A stretch of DNA of 64,000 nucleotides from Acholeplasmataceae bacterium (GTDB lineage Bacteria > Bacillota_I > Bacilli_A > Acholeplasmatales > Acholeplasmataceae): positions 1 through 64,000 of the forward strand of contig JAFGTQ010000032.1 in NCBI GenBank assembly GCA_016934015.1, given 5' to 3'. The position numbers were made by a program, and so were the translations under genes. Under the pieces are notes generated by a model. That model worked only from the letters and a program-made list of their open reading frames with translations, had not been told where the DNA came from and searched no databases. Below, piece by piece: positions 27,660 to 35,441 of this stretch (position 1 is its first letter; each line of letters opens with the position of its first letter).

Positions 27660-29450
27660 TTAGGAAATAGTTTTATCCTCATATTGCAATTGATACAAAC
27701 TGTGATAAATACCTTTCTTCTTTAATAATTCTTGGTGACTTCCACTTTCTTTTATCTCGCCTTTTTGCATGACAATAATTCGATCTGCGTGCTGAATGGT
27801 TGATAATCGATGGGCGACAATTAACATTGTTGAGATGTTCATCATCTTTTCCATGGAAGCTTGAATGAGTTCCTCAGTTTCACTATCAATATTTGCAGTG
27901 GCTTCATCTAATATCATCAAACTTGGTTTATAAACGACTGCTCTTGCAAATGAAATAAGCTGACGTTGTCCACTTGAAAAGTTATTACCACGTTCTAATA
28001 CAACGTGTTCATAACCATCTGGAAGTTTTTCAATAAACGTATTTGCCCCAACATATTCACTAGCTTTTTTAATTTCTGATATCGTAATCGATTCATCTTT
28101 TAAAGATATATTTTCAGCAATCGTACCACTAAATAAGAAAACATCTTGTAACATTTGACCAATAAAACGTCTAAGTGAAGATCGCTTGATATCTTTCAAA
28201 TCAATACCATCAATCAAAATTTGACCTTTTTGAATGTCATAATTTCGAACCATCAAACTTAAGATTGTTGTTTTACCTGAACCTGTAGAACCGACAAATG
28301 CAACAGTTTCCCCAGGGTTTACTTTAAAACTCACACCTTTTAAAACCCATTCATTTGGAATATAAGAAAACCATACATCTCTAAATTCAATTGATCCTGA
28401 GAAAGAATCTAATTCAACTGCATCTTCTTTATCGGTTATTTCAGGCTTAGTATCTAATACGTCAAATATTTTTTCTGCACTTGCAAAAGCATTTTGAAGC
28501 GTATTAAATTGTTCAGCAAGTTGTTGAATTGGTTCAAAGAAATCACCGACATACATATAATATGAGAATAATAATCCATAAGTAAATAAAGGAACGGTCA
28601 TAACTTCTTGATAACCAACATATAAGACGATGATAATACCAACCATCGATAATAAATAAACCGTCGGTCGATAAATACCAAACACTAGTATTTCTTTTAA
28701 GTAACTATTTCTTAATTTTTTACTATGATCTAAAAATTCAAATCTTTTCTTCTTTTCTTGATTAAAGATTTGTGTCACTTTCATCCCCGATAAATTTTCG
28801 GATAAAAATGCATTAACTTCAGATACATTCGCACGAACACGTCGATAAGATGCTCTTGAGTACTTTCTAAAAAGCACGGATGCTAGGATCACAAGCGGAA
28901 TAACAAGCATAAGCCATAACGTTATCTTGTAGTTGATAATAAACAAAACAACAATAACAACCATCAGATACAAAACATTTCTGACAAGATTGACTGCAAC
29001 CGATGTGTACATTTCACCAATGGAGTTCGTATCGTTTGCGACTCTTGTCACAAGTTTTCCAACTGGTACTTGATTAATTTGACCAATGGACAAATTTTCA
29101 ATATGATTGAATACATCATTTCTAATGGTTACAACTGTTTTTTGTCCTATTTTTTGCAACATCATACTTTGAAAGTATTGAATGAGAAATGCAAAACCTA
29201 ATGCAATCACAAATACACCAGACATTAAGGCAACTTGAAAAATCTTTTCATCTTTGGTCATGATATCACTACCGACAACATCGACAGTTCTACCAATAAT
29301 ATAGGGTGGCAACAATTGGATTCCAATCATGACAAACATGAGTAATACAACAATCATAAATTGCGATTTATACGGTTTCATATAAGCAATTAATCGCTTT
29401 AAAACCTCTTTATCGCTACGCTCTCTCGTGTTATCCTTGAAGTCCTTCAT
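27660..29450 (-). CDS. ABC exporter half-transporter, consensus ATPase subunit (pair 2)
   Basis: A 596-residue fused membrane/ATPase protein. Six helices are followed by Walker A GSTGSGKTT, signature FSSGQRQL, Walker B LMILDEATANID with catalytic Glu, and switch His in VAHRLSTI. The ATG at 29450 follows AGGAGG by eight bases; it overlaps the previous gene by 20 bases, so a longer frame from 29471 is rejected. With its partner it should form an asymmetric exporter of drugs, lipids or peptides; no substrate can be inferred. A terminator follows. Confidence 0.92.
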   Translation of the reverse strand: MKDFKDNTRERSDKEVLKRLIAYMKPYKSQFMIVVLLMFVMIGIQLLPPYIIGRTVDVVGSDIMTKDEKIFQVALMSGVFVIALGFAFLIQYFQSMMLQKIGQKTVVTIRNDVFNHIENLSIGQINQVPVGKLVTRVANDTNSIGEMYTSVAVNLVRNVLYLMVVIVVLFIINYKITLWLMLVIPLVILASVLFRKYSRASYRRVRANVSEVNAFLSENLSGMKVTQIFNQEKKKRFEFLDHSKKLRNSYLKEILVFGIYRPTVYLLSMVGIIIVLYVGYQEVMTVPLFTYGLLFSYYMYVGDFFEPIQQLAEQFNTLQNAFASAEKIFDVLDTKPEITDKEDAVELDSFSGSIEFRDVWFSYIPNEWVLKGVSFKVNPGETVAFVGSTGSGKTTILSLMVRNYDIQKGQILIDGIDLKDIKRSSLRRFIGQMLQDVFLFSGTIAENISLKDESITISEIKKASEYVGANTFIEKLPDGYEHVVLERGNNFSSGQRQLISFARAVVYKPSLMILDEATANIDSETEELIQASMEKMMNISTMLIVAHRLSTIQHADRIIVMQKGEIKESGSHQELLKKKGIYHSLYQLQYEDKTIS

Positions 29451-31209
29451 GATTGTCACCTCCTTCGACAATCGTTTCTAGTTGTTGACGACGAACCATG
29501 TCTTGATACAAAGGACTTGTCTTCATGAGCTCTTTATGATTACCAACATCAACTATTTCTCCTTGATCAAGTAAAATGATTTTATCCATTTTTTTAACAG
29601 TAGAAATACGATGTGCAATAAAAATCGTGGTTTTGCCTTTTCGGATTTGATGAAGATTACGAATAATTGATTCTTCTGTTTTTGTATCAACTGCAGACAC
29701 TGAATCATCCAAGATCAAAATTTCTGGATCTTTTGATAAAGCTCTTGCGATGCTGATTCTTTGTTTCTGTCCGCCGGATACGGTAACGCCACGCTCACCA
29801 AGCATTGTTTCAAATCCATCTTTAAATTCAATAATATTATCATAGACATCAGCTAATCTTGCGGATTCTTCAACTTTTGTTAAATCAGGTTTATCATATG
29901 CGAACCCGATATTGTTTCGAATCGTTTCAGAAAATAGAAAGTTATCTTGAGGAACATAACCTATCGCTTCTCTCACAGAATCTAATGTTAAATCCATGAT
30001 GTCGTAATTATCGATAAAAAGCTGACCTTTTTCAAGATTATAAATTCTTAAGAATAAATCAACTAAACTACTCTTTCCACTACCTGTTCTACCAAGAATT
30101 CCAACCATTTCACCTTGCTTTATCTCAAATGAGACATTTTTCAAAACAGGTGAATCTCCATCAGGATATTTGAATGTTAAATTCTTTAATGTTATTGCAC
30201 CTTTTAAACCTTTAACAGGTTTCGCATCATTTAAATCATAAACTTCATATGGATGATCCAAGAATTTTGTGATTCTTTCTGCTGAGGCTTTTGCTTGTCC
30301 TTGAATTTGCATAAATTGTGATAATGCCATGACTGGCCAAATAAGTGAGAAGAAATAACTGATGTACTCCGTTAATTGTCCTGCTGTTAAGCCTGTTTGA
30401 TCACGATTAATAACAAGTAAACTACCAAATAATACAATCGATAATATCACGAGATTAATAGCCGCACCTACAATTATGTTGATGATGACAACATATTTAA
30501 CAAATAAAATATGCTTATCATATAAATCTTCATTTTTCTTTTGAAAAAACATGTATTCTTTGATTTCTCTAACGAAAGCTTTAATGACAGTAATTCCTGA
30601 AAAGTTTTCTTGAGTAAAATCACTTAATTTTTCAAAAGCTTCTTGTCGAATTTTAAATTTCTTCGATATTTGTTTTCGTATGAAAATCATTATGACTAAT
30701 AATACAAGCATCGGTATGGACGCATATAGTGTCAATGTACTATTTAAATTAGCCATACGGTACAACGAAAAACCGCCTAAAACTAATCCATCAACAACCA
30801 TTAAAATCCCTGGTCCAAATGTCATACGGATTGCTTCCAAATCATTAATGAAATAGGTCATGAGTCCGCCAACTTTTTCTTGGCTGTAAAAACTTTGTGA
30901 GAGTTTTGTTGCGTGTGTGAACATGACATTTCTTAATCGAAACTCTATGCGTCTTGAAGCCCCAAATATCGTATAGCGCCATAAAAAGCGACCAATTGTA
31001 ATCGCTATGGCTAAAAATCCAATATTTTTAATTGATGCTAAAATAAATGCTTCGTCCGGAGTTGGTGATTTCAGTGCATCGATAATGCCACCGACAAGTT
31101 TAGGTATGTCGAGCTGTATCCAATCTACTAAAACTAGAACAGCAATCCCTAAGATAAAGAGATGCCCAAAAATAAAATAATACTTTCTAAAATGCTTACC
31201 AAATAACAT
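29431..31209 (-). CDS. ABC exporter half-transporter, degenerate ATPase subunit (pair 2)
   Basis: A 592-residue half-transporter. The membrane domain is followed by Walker A GRTGSGKSS, signature VSGGQKQRIS and switch His in IAHRIST. Walker B ends LILDDSVSAVDT, with Asp in place of the catalytic Glu, marking a degenerate site. It precedes and overlaps the consensus partner. AAGGTGGG precedes the ATG. Upstream on the same strand is a DUF2089/SHOCT operon, separated by a hairpin; a regulatory link is possible but unproven. Confidence 0.92.
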   Translation of the reverse strand: MLFGKHFRKYYFIFGHLFILGIAVLVLVDWIQLDIPKLVGGIIDALKSPTPDEAFILASIKNIGFLAIAITIGRFLWRYTIFGASRRIEFRLRNVMFTHATKLSQSFYSQEKVGGLMTYFINDLEAIRMTFGPGILMVVDGLVLGGFSLYRMANLNSTLTLYASIPMLVLLVIMIFIRKQISKKFKIRQEAFEKLSDFTQENFSGITVIKAFVREIKEYMFFQKKNEDLYDKHILFVKYVVIINIIVGAAINLVILSIVLFGSLLVINRDQTGLTAGQLTEYISYFFSLIWPVMALSQFMQIQGQAKASAERITKFLDHPYEVYDLNDAKPVKGLKGAITLKNLTFKYPDGDSPVLKNVSFEIKQGEMVGILGRTGSGKSSLVDLFLRIYNLEKGQLFIDNYDIMDLTLDSVREAIGYVPQDNFLFSETIRNNIGFAYDKPDLTKVEESARLADVYDNIIEFKDGFETMLGERGVTVSGGQKQRISIARALSKDPEILILDDSVSAVDTKTEESIIRNLHQIRKGKTTIFIAHRISTVKKMDKIILLDQGEIVDVGNHKELMKTSPLYQDMVRRQQLETIVEGGDNHEGLQG

Positions 31210-31244: not shown

Positions 31245-31269
31245 TAAAGGCGCTTCATCGAAGCGCTCT
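31245..31269 (-). terminator. Hairpin after the SHOCT-domain gene
   Basis: GCGCTTC / GAAGCGC with an ATC loop lies 25 bases after the SHOCT-domain gene and 35 bases before the pair-2 ABC start. The U-tract (CCTTTATT) is weak, so read-through into the ABC genes is likely. Confidence 0.6.
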
Positions 31270-31293: not shown

Positions 31294-31683
31294 TTATTCT
31301 ACGATAATTCTAACCTTATCGCCATCGGCTGAATCCACAGTGACAATTTCACCGACAACTCCACTATTGATCATATCAAGAAGTGCATCAATATCAATAT
31401 CATTGTCTGAAAGATTCACGTTAAATTTACCCGTCTTTAATAGTTTAGCAAATTCAACAGGAATTTGCACTCTAACTTTATCGCCATCTTCAGAATCTAC
31501 TAAGATTTTTAGCATTCTGAATGGAGCTTTTTTCTGATTAACGACAACCGATTCAGCTCTCATTCCTTCATCTGATTTATCCATTGCTGATAATAACTTT
31601 TCAGCTTCATCGGCAGAGATAATTCCTTTTGATAATAATTCTAACACTTTCATTCTTTCTTCTTTTAAATTTTCTTTTGACAT
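31294..31683 (-). CDS. SHOCT-like domain protein with duplicated beta unit
   Basis: A 129-residue cytosolic protein. The N-terminal segment EERMKVLELLSKGIISADEA matches the SHOCT-like / YvlB N-terminal oligomerisation helix pair. The rest holds two similar acidic beta units, VDSEDGDKVRVQIPVE and VDSADGDKVRIIVE, joined by a predicted amphipathic segment. The second ATG (31683) is chosen, as GAGGTG is spaced correctly for it. Genes of this type are found with PspC-, LiaF- or DUF2089-like envelope-stress proteins; function unknown. It is last in a three-gene operon after the DUF2089 gene. Confidence 0.75.
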   Translation of the reverse strand: MSKENLKEERMKVLELLSKGIISADEAEKLLSAMDKSDEGMRAESVVVNQKKAPFRMLKILVDSEDGDKVRVQIPVEFAKLLKTGKFNVNLSDNDIDIDALLDMINSGVVGEIVTVDSADGDKVRIIVE

Positions 31684-31696
31684 TTTCATTCACCTC

Positions 31697-32119
31697 TTAC
31701 TTATTTTTCTTTAAAGCTTCTAAAGCTTCATTCACGGTCATTTGACCTTTTTCAATAGATTCTAAGATTGTTTGTTTAATCTGATTTTTTAAATCTTTCT
31801 TGTTTTCCTTATCCTTAATTAATTCTTCATCATCATCAGGTTCTACAGAATATCCCAGACCAACGATGACTTCATCAAGCATCTTTTTAACTGTTGGATA
31901 GCTAATATTCAATTCTTTTTCAATTGTTTTAATGTTCCCACGATTTTTAACAAAAATCTCAATAAAATACAATTTTTCAGTTTCTAAGTAATTAAACTTT
32001 GAAAGTGAAAACGTCCCTGTTAATTCGGTATCACAATGTTCACAATGTAACTTAACAACATTTAATTCATGTTTACAAACAGGGCAAGTAGTTAATACTG
32101 GATGTTTTTTTTGATTCAT
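31697..32119 (-). CDS. DUF2089 protein: zinc ribbon plus HTH
   Basis: A 140-residue protein. A zinc ribbon at the N-terminus has two CxxC pairs (TTCPVCKHEL, HCEHCDTEL). A helix-turn-helix follows in EKELNISYPTVKKMLDEVI, then an acidic linker and a C-terminal SHOCT-like helix pair (ILESIEKGQMTVNEALEAL) similar to the N-terminus of the next gene. DUF2089 proteins are thought to be DNA-binding regulators; no target is known. The shared helix pair suggests that this protein and the SHOCT-domain protein bind one another. AAAGGAG precedes the ATG. Confidence 0.8.
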   Translation of the reverse strand: MNQKKHPVLTTCPVCKHELNVVKLHCEHCDTELTGTFSLSKFNYLETEKLYFIEIFVKNRGNIKTIEKELNISYPTVKKMLDEVIVGLGYSVEPDDDEELIKDKENKKDLKNQIKQTILESIEKGQMTVNEALEALKKNK

Positions 32120-32133
32120 TTTACTCTCTCCTT

Positions 32134-32487
32134 TTATATGGTTTTAATTAATACTTTCACTTGATCTTGAGTTTTGACATCCACTCTTGATCCTCTAATC
32201 ATCATAAGGTCCAACATTTCTTTGAACGTAATTGGAATTTCATCAGATAACTTTTGATTTCCACGTTTTTTTAAAACAAGTTTTACAATCCATAGAGGAA
32301 TAGGTAAGAATAATAGAATTTTTAAAAATGCATTGACACCTTTTTCTTCAGGGATTGATATGCTCATTTTCACAAAATGTGCACGTCTTGGTTTTCGTTC
32401 CTTTTGTTTTTTATATAGCATTTGGTATGCCTTCTTTAAATGAATCTTCTTTTGTTCAAGTTGATTAAGCACTTCATATTGTGTCAT
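32134..32487 (-). CDS. Hypothetical protein with one membrane segment, SHOCT/DUF2089 operon
   Basis: A 117-residue protein not recognised as a known family. The first 20 residues (YEVLNQLEQKKIHLKKAYQM) look like another short helix pair of the SHOCT kind. A very basic stretch (KKQKERKPRRAH) and a hydrophobic segment with prolines (FLKILLFLPIPLWIVKLVL) follow, then a C-terminal domain ending VDVKTQDQVKVLIKTI. That C-terminal beta strand resembles the repeat unit of the SHOCT-domain gene. It is first in the operon, behind a consensus promoter; it may place the complex at the membrane, which is inference. Confidence 0.7.
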   Translation of the reverse strand: MTQYEVLNQLEQKKIHLKKAYQMLYKKQKERKPRRAHFVKMSISIPEEKGVNAFLKILLFLPIPLWIVKLVLKKRGNQKLSDEIPITFKEMLDLMMIRGSRVDVKTQDQVKVLIKTI

Positions 32488-32527
32488 TTAATCACGACCT
32501 TTGTTTAATTTTTTAATTTACACCTTG

Positions 32528-32556
32528 ATTATATTAAACATTTTCAATATTGTCAA
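32528..32556 (-). promoter_or_regulatory. Consensus promoter of the DUF2089/SHOCT operon
   Basis: Minus-strand TTGACA (32551-32556) and TATAAT (32528-32533) are exactly 17 bases apart, 40 bases before the first gene. Confidence 0.9.
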
Positions 32557-32612
32557 TACTTTTTTTATAAAAAATTAAAAATATTTATTTTTTGATTAAT
32601 TTTTTTAACCTC

Positions 32613-32673: not shown

Positions 32674-33894
32674 ATGGATTATCTAATTGAGCGTTTCTTG
32701 CGTTATGTGAAAATCGACACACAATCAGATCATGAAACGCATACTCATCCTTCAACGGAAAAACAAAAAGATTTAAGTCGTTTATTATTAAAAGAATTAC
32801 AAGAAATGGGTATTAAATCACACCTCGACCAATTTGGTTATGTTTATGGTTTAATTCCAAAGAATAAAGAAAATGCGCGTGCGCTAGGATTTATCGCGCA
32901 CGTGGATACATCACCCGATGCTCCTGGAGCAAATGTTAATCCGAGAATTATAAAAAACTATCAAGGCGAAACCATTAAACTTAATGATTCGCTATCGATG
33001 CATCCCAATGAATTCCCAAGTTTATCACGTGTTATTGGTGATGATATCATTGTTACCGATGGAAATACCTTACTTGGTGCAGATGACAAATGTGGAGTTG
33101 CTGAAATTATGGAACTTGCACGTTACTTTGTCGAAAACCCGAATGAACCTCATGGCGATATTTATATTTGCTTTACACCTGATGAAGAAATCGGGGAAGG
33201 TGCTAATCACTTTGATTATGACTATTTTAAAGCGGATTTTGCATATACTTCAGATGGCAGTGAAGTTGGTGGTATTGAATATGAAAACTTTAATGCAGCA
33301 ACTGCAAGAATATCGTTTATAGGTAAAAGCATTCATCCAGGTTCAGCTAAACTTAAAATGGTCAATGCACTTCATTTGGCAATGGAATTTCACTCACTTC
33401 TTCCAGCATTTTACAATCCAGCATTCACCGAAAACTACGAAGGCTTTAATCACCTAACTGGTTTGAAAGGTGAAGTGGAAAAAGCGTTTAGCAATTATAT
33501 TATTCGAAATCATAATTTAAGTAAATTTGATTTACAAAAGAAAGACTTTATACGCATTATGAATTATATGAACGACAAATATTGCTACGAAGCTGTAAGT
33601 TTAGTCATTAAAGATAGTTATTTCAATATGTATGAAAAACTTAAAGATCATATGTATATCATCGAACTCGCAGAACAAGCAATAAAAAATGCAGGTGTTA
33701 CACCATTTGCATCGCCAATTCGTGGCGGTACAGATGGCGCAAGACTAACTTATGAAGGTCTTTTATGCCCTAATTTAGGAACAGGTGGTTATCAGTTCCA
33801 CGGTCGCTTAGAATTCGCATCGATTCAACAAATGCACCAAGCAGTTAAAATCTTAATTGAAATCGTAAGATTGTCTGCAACTCAAAAAAAATAA
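32674..33894 (+). CDS. pepT: Peptidase T (tripeptide aminopeptidase)
   Basis: A 406-residue M20-family dizinc peptidase that removes the N-terminal residue of tripeptides in the cytosol. Metal and catalytic motifs are seen in order: FIAHVDTSPD, LLGADDKCGVAEIME, FTPDEEIGEGANHFD, YTSDGSEVGGIEYENFNA and IRGGTDGARLTYEG. The N-terminus MDYLIERFLRYVKIDTQSD is typical of PepT. GAGGAG lies 11 bases upstream of the ATG. It is monocistronic, with its own promoter and a terminator, on the minority strand. Confidence 0.96.
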   Translation: MDYLIERFLRYVKIDTQSDHETHTHPSTEKQKDLSRLLLKELQEMGIKSHLDQFGYVYGLIPKNKENARALGFIAHVDTSPDAPGANVNPRIIKNYQGETIKLNDSLSMHPNEFPSLSRVIGDDIIVTDGNTLLGADDKCGVAEIMELARYFVENPNEPHGDIYICFTPDEEIGEGANHFDYDYFKADFAYTSDGSEVGGIEYENFNAATARISFIGKSIHPGSAKLKMVNALHLAMEFHSLLPAFYNPAFTENYEGFNHLTGLKGEVEKAFSNYIIRNHNLSKFDLQKKDFIRIMNYMNDKYCYEAVSLVIKDSYFNMYEKLKDHMYIIELAEQAIKNAGVTPFASPIRGGTDGARLTYEGLLCPNLGTGGYQFHGRLEFASIQQMHQAVKILIEIVRLSATQKK

Positions 33895-33918: not shown

Positions 33919-34191
33919 TCAATAATAAAGACTAATAAGTGGAACTATTATTATTCCAAGTATAAACATAATTTTAGTTGATAAATTTAACTCATTAAAG
34001 TCTTTTTTGTAGAGTCTACGTGTAAATAAAATTGATAATGAGATATAGGATAATAAAATGAATGAAACAATCGAATATAAGATTTTCATTCCAATAGGTG
34101 CAGCAAATTCAATTCGGTTATAGCTTAAATAATTGATAAACCCATACCAAACAAATCCAATACCTACATATATTTTTTTTATGATTGCCAT
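33919..34191 (-). CDS. Small membrane protein, three predicted helices, unknown
   Basis: A 90-residue protein that I do not recognise. Three hydrophobic segments are visible at about 5-20, 33-57 and 71-89, separated by short charged loops (SYNRIEFAAP, TRRLYKKDFNELN). It overlaps the end of the Sel1-repeat gene by 13 bases, so it is co-translated with it, and both are likely parts of one function. The ATG at 34191 lies within the last codons of the Sel1 gene. Composition is like its neighbours. Confidence 0.6.
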   Translation of the reverse strand: MAIIKKIYVGIGFVWYGFINYLSYNRIEFAAPIGMKILYSIVSFILLSYISLSILFTRRLYKKDFNELNLSTKIMFILGIIIVPLISLYY

Positions 34192-35441
34192 GTGCTTTTT
34201 TGCAGTTTCTCATAATTATTAATTGAATACATGAGTTTCACTGCAACCTCCAAGCCTTGATCTGCAGCTTTTTGCCACAATTCTCTCGCTTTTTCCTCAT
34301 CTTTTTCAACAACAGCACCCTCAAAATAAAGCATACCTAAATTATATTGTGCAATTGCTAAATTAGCTTGAGCGGCTTTTTCATACCAGAAGAGAGATTT
34401 CTTAGCATTTTCTTCAACACCATCACCTTTTTGATACATCACTGCTAAGTTATATTGAGCATGAGGATGATCAAGGGCTGCAGCTTGTTCTAATAGTTTT
34501 GAAACAGTATTCATATCACGATCTTCATGTTTAATTAAAATCATTGCTAAATGATACAAAGCATTTTTATCTTTCTTAAGTGCAGCTTTTTCATACCAAA
34601 AAACAGCTTGATCCAAATCTTTTTGAACGCCTTTGCCCAATTGGTAATAGAGACCTACGTAATATTCGGATTCTGTATGATGCTGTTTGGCTGCAACCAT
34701 AAACCATTCGAATGCTTTTAGAGGATGTTTATCTTCTTTTTCATGATAATAAAATGCGAGTGTATAAGCGGCGAGAGCATAATTTTGCTTCGCTGCTTTT
34801 TCAAGATAAAAAACAGCTTTTGGCCATACTTTACGATCGAGTGCATTAACTCCTAAGGCATAGAGTGCATAAGGATGATCTTGTTTAGCAGCTTGTTCAT
34901 AGTAATATTCAGCTGTTTCAGTTTGTTTCTCATCATGCCCAATGGTTTCATAAATCATGCCAAGCATATATTGAGAATCACTATAACCCAGCTTGGCCGA
35001 TTTCAAAAACCACTCAATGGCTTTAAATATATAACGTTGGACATTAAATCCATAATAATAGTAGGTACCCAGAATATGGATACTTACTGGATCTTGTTGA
35101 TTAGCTTCTGAAAGTAAAATTTCATAATTTTCTTTGAAATAAGTGCGTGCTAAATCTTCATCTCTTTCTCTTTCACTTCCACTATGAAACATGAGTCCAA
35201 CAGCGTAACCACATTTCGCGCTGCCTAAGGATGCACCTTTTTGGTATAGTTCCATTGCTTTTTCTAAGTCCAAAGAAATACCATCACCTAAACCATAAAA
35301 TCGGCCTAAGAAATAATAAGCATCTGCATAACCCTGCATGGCTGCTTGCTCAAAATGGTCAATAGCAACCATCACATTTTTATTGGGTGTATTTAAAATA
35401 TAATTTGATAAACCTGCTCGATAAAGATTCATTGCATTCAT
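34179..35441 (-). CDS. Sel1-repeat (TPR-like) protein
   Basis: A 420-residue cytosolic protein made almost wholly of Sel1-like repeats of about 36 residues, about eleven in number. Typical units are AMQGYADAYYFLGRFYGLGD, HPHAQYNLAVMYQKGDGV and ANLAIAQYNLGMLYFEGA. Such solenoids are protein-binding scaffolds; no enzyme domain, signal peptide or membrane segment is seen. GGAG precedes the ATG. It is co-translated with the 90-residue three-helix membrane protein, so it may be held at the membrane through that partner. Function unknown. Confidence 0.85.
   Translation of the reverse strand: MNAMNLYRAGLSNYILNTPNKNVMVAIDHFEQAAMQGYADAYYFLGRFYGLGDGISLDLEKAMELYQKGASLGSAKCGYAVGLMFHSGSERERDEDLARTYFKENYEILLSEANQQDPVSIHILGTYYYYGFNVQRYIFKAIEWFLKSAKLGYSDSQYMLGMIYETIGHDEKQTETAEYYYEQAAKQDHPYALYALGVNALDRKVWPKAVFYLEKAAKQNYALAAYTLAFYYHEKEDKHPLKAFEWFMVAAKQHHTESEYYVGLYYQLGKGVQKDLDQAVFWYEKAALKKDKNALYHLAMILIKHEDRDMNTVSKLLEQAAALDHPHAQYNLAVMYQKGDGVEENAKKSLFWYEKAAQANLAIAQYNLGMLYFEGAVVEKDEEKARELWQKAADQGLEVAVKLMYSINNYEKLQKSTWQS

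Follow-up and report, generated by a model that had tools for sequence, protein, structure and literature searches.

A DUF2089 operon that looks like a membrane-stress switch for a drug-type ABC exporter pair in an Acholeplasmataceae bacterium

Introduction

In the genome of an Acholeplasmataceae bacterium, three small genes stand directly before a pair of ABC exporter genes, which raises the question of what the three do and whether the exporter belongs to the same unit. The window analysed here is the whole 64,000-nucleotide stretch at positions 1 to 64,000 of contig JAFGTQ010000032.1 (assembly GCA_016934015.1), part of contig C30 in our numbering, from an assembly of 1.17 Mb in 77 contigs that is 83% complete. 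Judging by its named relatives, the host is presumably a wall-less mollicute, and to our knowledge such wall-less bacteria have almost no two-component systems. A first-pass annotation, made from the sequence alone, had proposed that the three genes encode a membrane-tethered regulatory complex.

In the analysis that follows, the three genes look like a self-regulating switch that answers membrane trouble by turning on a drug-type export pump. If this is true, it would explain the coupling of membrane damage to drug export in wall-less bacteria. In addition, a probable operator that is readable from the relatives and a defined pair of partner proteins make the function of DUF2089 directly testable.

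Materials and methods

Homologues were gathered from 60 stretches of related genomes, aligned, and then compared as family profiles with hhalign. The label f1 denotes the window's own family, referred to below as the family, while f2, f4, f24, g11 and similar labels denote other groups. The 45 family loci include two that are halves of one genome, and one locus with no match (L103) was left out. The class sample comprises 40 selected loci, from genomes with a match, in the families f7, f9, f12, f15, f16, f19, f22 and f24. Two named relatives that carry the first gene of the trio, UBA6181 and STD2_54, are Acholeplasmataceae metagenome genomes. Shuffle statistics ignore the common descent of related genomes and thus overstate significance, so that independent placements of a site are given more weight here. 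Single-chain AlphaFold2 models of the first and third proteins (mean pLDDT 44.9 from a three-row alignment and 51.7 from a two-row alignment, respectively) are too poor for contacts and served only as a hint of secondary structure.

Three small proteins with shared parts

The trio consists of minus-strand open reading frames, here named A (32134..32487), B (31697..32119) and C (31294..31689), with gaps of 14 and 7 nt, the tight arrangement that the first-pass annotation had described. B is a DUF2089 regulator of 140 amino acids with a zinc ribbon, a helix-turn-helix (HTH) domain at residues 45-90 and a C-terminal SHOCT-like hairpin at 111-139. The zinc ribbon scores 49.8 bits against PF22747 (cut-off 27.6) and the HTH 76.5 bits against PF09862 (cut-off 33.4), which places B in the DUF2089 HTH family and bears out the zinc ribbon and HTH that had been read in one member of the trio. 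The four zinc cysteines (C12, C15, C26 and C29) are all present in 51 of 59 aligned rows, and two further rows are truncated there. At its C-terminal end the window's B has no PF22746 match at E<=1, and the B of a relative (L069) reaches 22.5 bits, below the cut-off of 27. B is found in 87 of the 160 genomes of the order, and DUF2089 also occurs outside the class, in the control genomes of Thermotoga, Thermus and Deinobacterium. The five B proteins of f4 (L110-L114) and the B of L107 have kept at most one of the four zinc cysteines, and the HTH region is retained in the three f4 sequences that were read.

C is a protein of 131 amino acids (129 from the second ATG), with an N-terminal SHOCT-like hairpin at 10-40 that scores 34.5 bits against PF22746 (SHOCT-like_DUF2089-C; cut-off 27), followed by a small domain that contains a pair of beta hairpins with DGD turns. 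The motif DGDKVR occurs exactly twice, at 68-73 and 122-127, and the two hairpins match each other as profiles over 15 columns with an E-value of 6e-7, so the duplicated unit noted earlier in this protein is real. A, with 117 amino acids, has an N-terminal SHOCT-like helix pair at about 2-25, a hydrophobic hairpin, FLKILLFLPIPLWIVKLVL, at 54-72, and a C-terminal part that resembles C. Pfam finds no family on A at E<=1; the cut-off of PF22746 is not reached, and only profile comparison relates A to C and to the terminal part of B.

These profile comparisons tie the three proteins together. Residues 111-139 of B align with 8-36 of C (E 9e-7, probability 91%), as expected from the SHOCT-type helix pairs first read at these two ends, and residues 114-136 of B align with 2-24 of A (E 5e-5, probability 67%), which gives substance to a similar pair suspected at the start of A. 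The second-best alignments reach an E-value of only 0.3 for B with C and 0.2 for B with A. Over 104 columns, A 4-114 matches C 13-128 (E 5e-7, probability 93%), and this match indicates that A and C are paralogues over their full length. The likeness of C's beta unit to the end of A, noted in the first-pass annotation, is thus present, but it is not confined to that end. In combination, the alignments indicate a SHOCT-like module common to A, B and C.

The hydrophobic part distinguishes A from its partners. In the 54-72 segment of A, the best Kyte-Doolittle mean over 19 residues is at least 1.6 in 40 of 41 family sequences, a value attained by one of 59 B sequences and by none of 49 C sequences. 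The segment is hydrophobic by the same measure in 35 of 37 sequences of A from other families. The membrane segment that had been assigned to one member of the trio is thereby located in A. It aligns to the stretch IPVEFAKLL of C, where A has six additional residues, and the PIP at its centre gives it the look of an in-plane hairpin more than of a simple transmembrane helix.

A occurs in 43 of the 88 family genomes and in 26 of the 51 near-complete ones; the family genomes without it include all 29 of g12 (0.3-0.9 Mb). Among 395 genomes drawn from the class, C was found in 126 and A in 75. In 10 of the 19 f24 loci, A carries a VanZ domain fused at its N-terminus, and in the other nine VanZ is encoded separately upstream of A; one fused and one separate case were confirmed by Pfam, and the rest were assigned by BLAST cluster and size. 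The A frames of 265-300 amino acids in f24 had been considered as A-B fusions, a reading that was rejected for VanZ-A fusions. Seven f24 loci (L185-L189, L192 and L193) also have between one and three genes for peptides of about 32-46 amino acids up to about 420 nt upstream of VanZ-A, with Shine-Dalgarno-like sequences and mostly a common [YF]W motif (for example SPxNYW or CPxEYW); in L187 and L193 they are preceded by a predicted promoter. In five f4 loci, a protein of 115-130 amino acids stands in the place of A; it is A-like by eye, and the one that was scanned has no Pfam family.

Searches beyond the trio gave little further guidance. PADLOC assigned no defence family to A, B or C, and PDB searches that used the sequences of B and C, as well as family profiles for A and C, gave no convincing match, the best being a zinc-finger match of B with an E-value of 0.066.

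Conservation of the gene order

The three genes stand next to each other in 36 of the 45 family loci that have any match. Among the other nine, contig ends or the split genome account for L064, L065, L098 and L109, and a small ORF call interrupts the trio in L075 and L085. The scan finds no A frame in L101 and L107, where a genome search recovers for L101 a weak A match with a stop, and L108 has neither A nor the ABC pair. Apart from these nine, L089 stops inside C. The genome of L103, which was left out of the count, lacks B and has a stop-interrupted remnant that resembles A. The L108 locus (G018) itself consists of B and an enlarged C of 169 amino acids.

Outside the family, the trio is contiguous in 35 of the 40 class loci, in six of the eight families sampled. 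A small ORF lies within it in L199 and L201, and in L221-L223 (f12 and f22) a shorter A-like protein stands directly before B. The first-pass annotation had named a lack of conserved order among relatives as the observation that would speak against its proposal; the order is kept both within the family and in six further families of the class. From these comparisons, the trio appears to be older than the split of the class families sampled.

The neighbours of the trio have a narrower distribution. The ABC pair, identified from BLAST clusters, comes after C in 41 of the 45 family loci, and peptidase T (pepT, 32674..33894, plus strand) lies divergently and immediately before A in 36 of the 45. 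Both also occur in f4, where the five loci with B and C have the ABC pair after C and pepT is retained. By comparison, pepT was beside the trio in none of the 40 loci of other families, and other genes follow C there, for example an MFS transporter (one checked by Pfam) or an rRNA methyltransferase-like gene (by eye). pepT and the ABC pair thus appear, from gene order, to be neighbours of the trio within the order only. In eight f2 loci, B has no A or C beside it; a Toastrack protein comes next, two of these being confirmed by Pfam and the rest assigned by BLAST cluster, and an ABC pair stands after it in three of the eight. A protein of 420 amino acids with Sel1/TPR-like repeats (34179-35441 in the window; repeat type by eye) is near pepT in many, though not all, family loci.

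Promoter and candidate operator array

The most informative part of the locus is one that the first-pass annotation did not contain, namely an array of palindromes around the promoter of A. This promoter, TTGACA-17-TATAAT (32528..32556, minus strand), agrees with the consensus at 12 of 12 positions, and 40 nt separate the end of its -10 hexamer from the start of A. When the upstream regions of the family are read side by side, a palindrome, ATTAA-N5-TTAAT, recurs in them with a spacing of 21 bp. The window has one exact copy, GTTAAAAAAATTAAT, a candidate DUF2089 operator site at 32595..32609 (minus strand) upstream of the -35 hexamer. Three further candidate sites on the same strand have one mismatch each: one at 32574..32588, 21 bp from the exact site, one at 32524..32538, which overlaps the -10 hexamer, and one at 32503..32517, just past it. 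One-mismatch places that are out of register also occur at 32629-32615 and 32547-32533. Rfam at gathering scores found no family between 27000 and 34000 of the window.

The half-sites are enriched well beyond their expected frequency. Within 150 nt upstream, 39 family regions contain TTAA-N5-TTAA 70 times, against 5.0 in shuffles (maximum 9 in 100), and 36 of the 39 regions have it. Spacings of 8 (48 cases) and 17 (77 cases) between half-sites are also raised, since the 21-bp period of the palindrome demands them, and every other spacing between 0 and 20 stays at the background level. For other families, with 36 upstream regions, the spacing of 5 occurs 40 times against 3.0 (maximum 8 in 50 shuffles), in 21 of the 36. 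Fourteen of the 15 regions with no exact site belong to f24, where a wrong gene start may have been used and some regions have sites farther upstream. In these families the spacings 8, 17, 26 and 29 are raised, as the 21-bp period predicts, and so are 18 and 27, unlike that prediction. Four of the five f4 upstream regions have no exact site. As a control, 387 regions upstream of other genes in the same loci (pepT excluded) contained 13 copies against 13.8 expected from shuffles, with no excess.

The sites also hold fixed positions with respect to the -10 hexamer. When up to one mismatch is tolerated, a site lies at +17 in 35 of 37 family promoters, at -4 in 29 and at -55 in 14, the median over all offsets being zero; the first two correspond to the window's sites just past and over the -10 hexamer. 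In other families, upstream sites lie at -45 in 7 of 13 promoters (with -44 as a neighbouring position), at -66 in 6 of 13 and at -87 in 4 of 13. Downstream sites lie at +16 in 5 of 11 and at +37 in 4 of 10 (with +38 as a neighbour), and the -4 position is not kept.

These positions bear on the sign of control. In the favoured reading, B would bind its own promoter at the array, where a period of two helical turns would let successive dimers face the same way, and it would repress its own operon through the sites over and just past the -10 hexamer. Repression is put forward as a tentative sign of control, since the promoters of other families keep the upstream sites best (-45 and -66) and the downstream sites less. 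An unlikely alternative that nonetheless draws on the same data is that B is an activator, whose upstream-bound sites recruit RNA polymerase while A and C act as an anti-activator pair that holds B at the membrane until stress. It would account for the upstream positions favoured in other families and for the 21-bp-spaced sites found before the -35 hexamer in many promoters and before a second ABC exporter (below), and the accessible sections of one study propose SHOCT-like domains as membrane anchors (Ravi et al., 2024; PMC11237479). The window's own family argues the other way, with its best-kept sites overlapping or following the -10 hexamer (29 and 35 of 37), and the hexamers of the A promoter are already consensus, as is usual for repression.

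Sequence comparison links the array to the DUF2089 gene. Across the 160 genomes of the order, the exact double site occurs in at least 75 places, 23 of which are upstream of B (9 in f1 and 14 in f2). Among the matches listed, the 14 placements in f2 come from 13 genomes, with two overlapping in G118. The reversed double site, as a control, gave 35 places in the same genomes among the matches listed, so the remaining 52 listed places exceed chance only moderately. Eight f2 loci were read, four of them from the 13 genomes, and in all eight neither A nor pepT stands before B, which links the array to the B gene itself.

Targets elsewhere are less clear. When one mismatch is allowed, the only double site in the host's genome is the one at the A promoter, with two places for the reversed control, and a three-half-site pattern has seven places, the A promoter not among them, with seven for its reversed control. 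As these searches do not rise above their controls, no regulon is claimed beyond the locus. When whole loci were scored for arrays, few came up. Two g11 genomes (G027 and G041), which count as one event, have the same promoter and operator layout before another ABC exporter, and in six further g11 genomes a relative of that exporter stands without the sites. In four of these six (L265-L268), a reading of the DNA places the exporter relative after Toastrack-like repeats.

The exporter pair

The two genes after C encode the halves of an ABC exporter. ABC1 (29431..31209, minus strand, 592 amino acids) has a degenerate site, LILDDS after Walker B, while ABC2 (27660..29471, minus strand, 603 amino acids) has the canonical catalytic glutamate, LILDEA. 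The start listed for ABC2 is a TTG, and an ATG seven codons on, at 29450, is equally likely. One degenerate and one canonical nucleotide site are the mark of heterodimeric ABC exporters, and these adjacent half-transporters, one with D and one with E, conform to the BmrCD type. Among the listed solved chains, the best bacterial match of ABC1 is YheI, which we take to be BmrC, and those of ABC2 are 6raf_A/5mkk_A, TM_0288 and YheH, presumably TmrAB for the first and BmrD for the last.

The spacer between C and ABC1 bears on whether the pair is transcribed with the trio. It contains a hairpin of seven pairs with a poor T run (31250..31266, minus strand), and the folding of a 96-nt stretch there has a z-score of -2.3, with 7 of 200 shuffles as good. 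The first-pass annotation had described a weak hairpin that separates the trio from the ABC pair; the hairpin is there, but the picture of mere neighbours is misleading, given how regularly the pair follows C. Among other family spacers between C and ABC1, 33 of 41 fold at -10 kcal/mol or better, a threshold of our own choosing applied without shuffles, with one of the 41 misplaced by a truncated C. The strict promoter scan gave no match in the family spacers, and in five g10 loci a TATAAT follows the hairpin. Ten loci have a spacer of only 0-32 nt counted from the most upstream start, and no hairpin is present in those of 12-32 nt (L094, L097, L100, L104 and the f4 loci L110-L114) or in that of 0 nt (L107). 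The hairpin may serve as a partial terminator or a processing site, which would reduce transcription and not end it. With hairpins in 33 of 41 spacers and no strict promoter, coupling of the pump to the trio may be weak.

This evidence also bears on an improbable reading in which the trio is a structural scaffold beneath the membrane, similar to PspA or Toastrack proteins, with B limiting its own amount and the ABC pair present by lineage synteny only. The hairpin-forming spacers would suit such a scaffold, as would the different genes that come after the trio outside the family, in the 40 class loci, and the presence of pepT as another conserved neighbour. It is harder to reconcile with ABC pairs that follow in three families of the order, including after B and Toastrack, with the very short spacers of the ten loci, and with a second ABC exporter placed behind the same operator in two genomes.

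A still more remote reading, and quite doubtful, is a bacteriocin or peptide immunity and export system, in which B and the pump handle a peptide from the cell or its neighbours. DUF2089 genes are indeed reported in leaderless bacteriocin clusters with ABC exporters, in the accessible sections of three papers (PMC10707071, PMC9484092 and PMC7332713), and several f24 loci carry the small YW-motif genes before VanZ-A. In the window, the short distance from the -10 hexamer to A leaves no room for a peptide gene, and Pfam found no peptidase domain in the pump pair.

A possible switch

The reading preferred here, given about an even chance on the basis of sequence comparison, is that A, B, C, ABC1 and ABC2 form one regulated unit, which B represses and which membrane-docked A and C release under stress. 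A and C would be partner proteins, each with a SHOCT-like helix hairpin and a small beta domain. A would sit at the inner face of the membrane through its hydrophobic hairpin, C would be soluble, and the SHOCT-like hairpins of both would pair with the terminal one of B. The signal may be a disturbance of the membrane, such as amphipathic compounds, peptides or wrong lipids. A disturbed membrane would cause A, C or both to remove B from the DNA, the operon with its heterodimeric ABC exporter would then be made, and the exporter would expel the offending compound or restore lipid balance. The membrane-tethered complex of the first-pass annotation gains from the shared SHOCT-like modules, the hydrophobic segment of A and the VanZ-A fusions, and we still infer it.

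A broader proposition is held a little less firmly, at somewhat under even confidence. DUF2089 proteins may supply the DNA-binding half of a membrane-stress switch that is widespread, works without a kinase and has a DNA code of its own, the ATTAA-N5-TTAAT palindrome in 21-bp arrays. In this switch, a duplicated SHOCT-beta pair, of which one member is docked and can be fused to VanZ, would replace Toastrack and PspC as the sensor, and drug-type exporters would be the output. Such a switch would be common in wall-less mollicutes and their relatives and would predate the split of several families of the class.

Comparison with known systems

The adjacent pair with one degenerate and one canonical site resembles BmrCD, TmrAB and TM287-288, as do its matches to YheI/YheH, 6raf/5mkk and TM_0288. 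BmrCD is regulated by attenuation, whereas the pair described here would be under DUF2089 control, if the reading is right.

LiaX of the LiaFSR system in Enterococcus has an N-terminal helical domain reported to bind antimicrobials and a C-terminal one that inhibits LiaFSR, according to the accessible sections of the source (PMC10269926). So far as those sections describe it, the likeness lies in an N-terminal helical module, a beta-rich second part and a link to envelope stress. However, residues 10-70 of C reach only 20.6 bits against the LiaX model NF038025 (cut-off 350), which leaves C outside the LiaX family. C also differs in having no Toastrack half, and the operon has no histidine kinase or response regulator, its regulator being a DUF2089 protein.

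The HAAS-PadR-Toastrack systems, as presented in the accessible sections of PMC11237479, are alike in combining a small DNA-binding protein with an adaptor near the membrane, with no kinase. They differ in using another DNA-binding family and another adaptor at a separate locus. The host's own genome (G000) has, on contig C66 (L270, 471-2373), a PadR-like gene, a HAAS-like gene and a membrane-anchored Toastrack gene in a row, with PadR and HAAS assigned by eye. On the present look, this is a second locus of envelope-stress type in the host.

The closest relatives are the DUF2089-Toastrack operons. In the accessible sections of the study that describes them, DUF2089 is divided into zinc-ribbon, HTH and SHOCT-like parts, and its occurrence in Toastrack operons, possibly lia-like, is taken to predict a role in envelope stress (Ravi et al., 2024; PMC11237479). 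As described there, these operons share with the present one a DUF2089 protein with zinc ribbon, HTH and an end that is SHOCT-like here by profile comparison, SHOCT-like partners, a link to membrane proteins and a proposed transcriptional output of membrane stress. The window's operon differs in lacking Toastrack, PspC, PspA and LiaI-LiaF-TM, and it has two SHOCT-beta paralogues instead. A Pfam search of its five genes for Toastrack (PF13349), PspC and PspA found none, which sets it apart from the Toastrack/PSP-Lia operons proper, and the host genome, at 83% completeness, yielded one Toastrack elsewhere and no PspA or PspC. An operator array and an exporter pair were not seen among the features described in the accessible sections of PMC11237479. 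A search of open-licence papers found no tested function of DUF2089 and no report of this operator. The operon is best read as a variant, free of Toastrack, of the DUF2089/Toastrack envelope-stress operons that Ravi et al. (2024) predicted. Its kind is known from comparative genomics, and, as far as the searches reach, the variant with its paralogous SHOCT-beta pair, its array and its exporter output is new.
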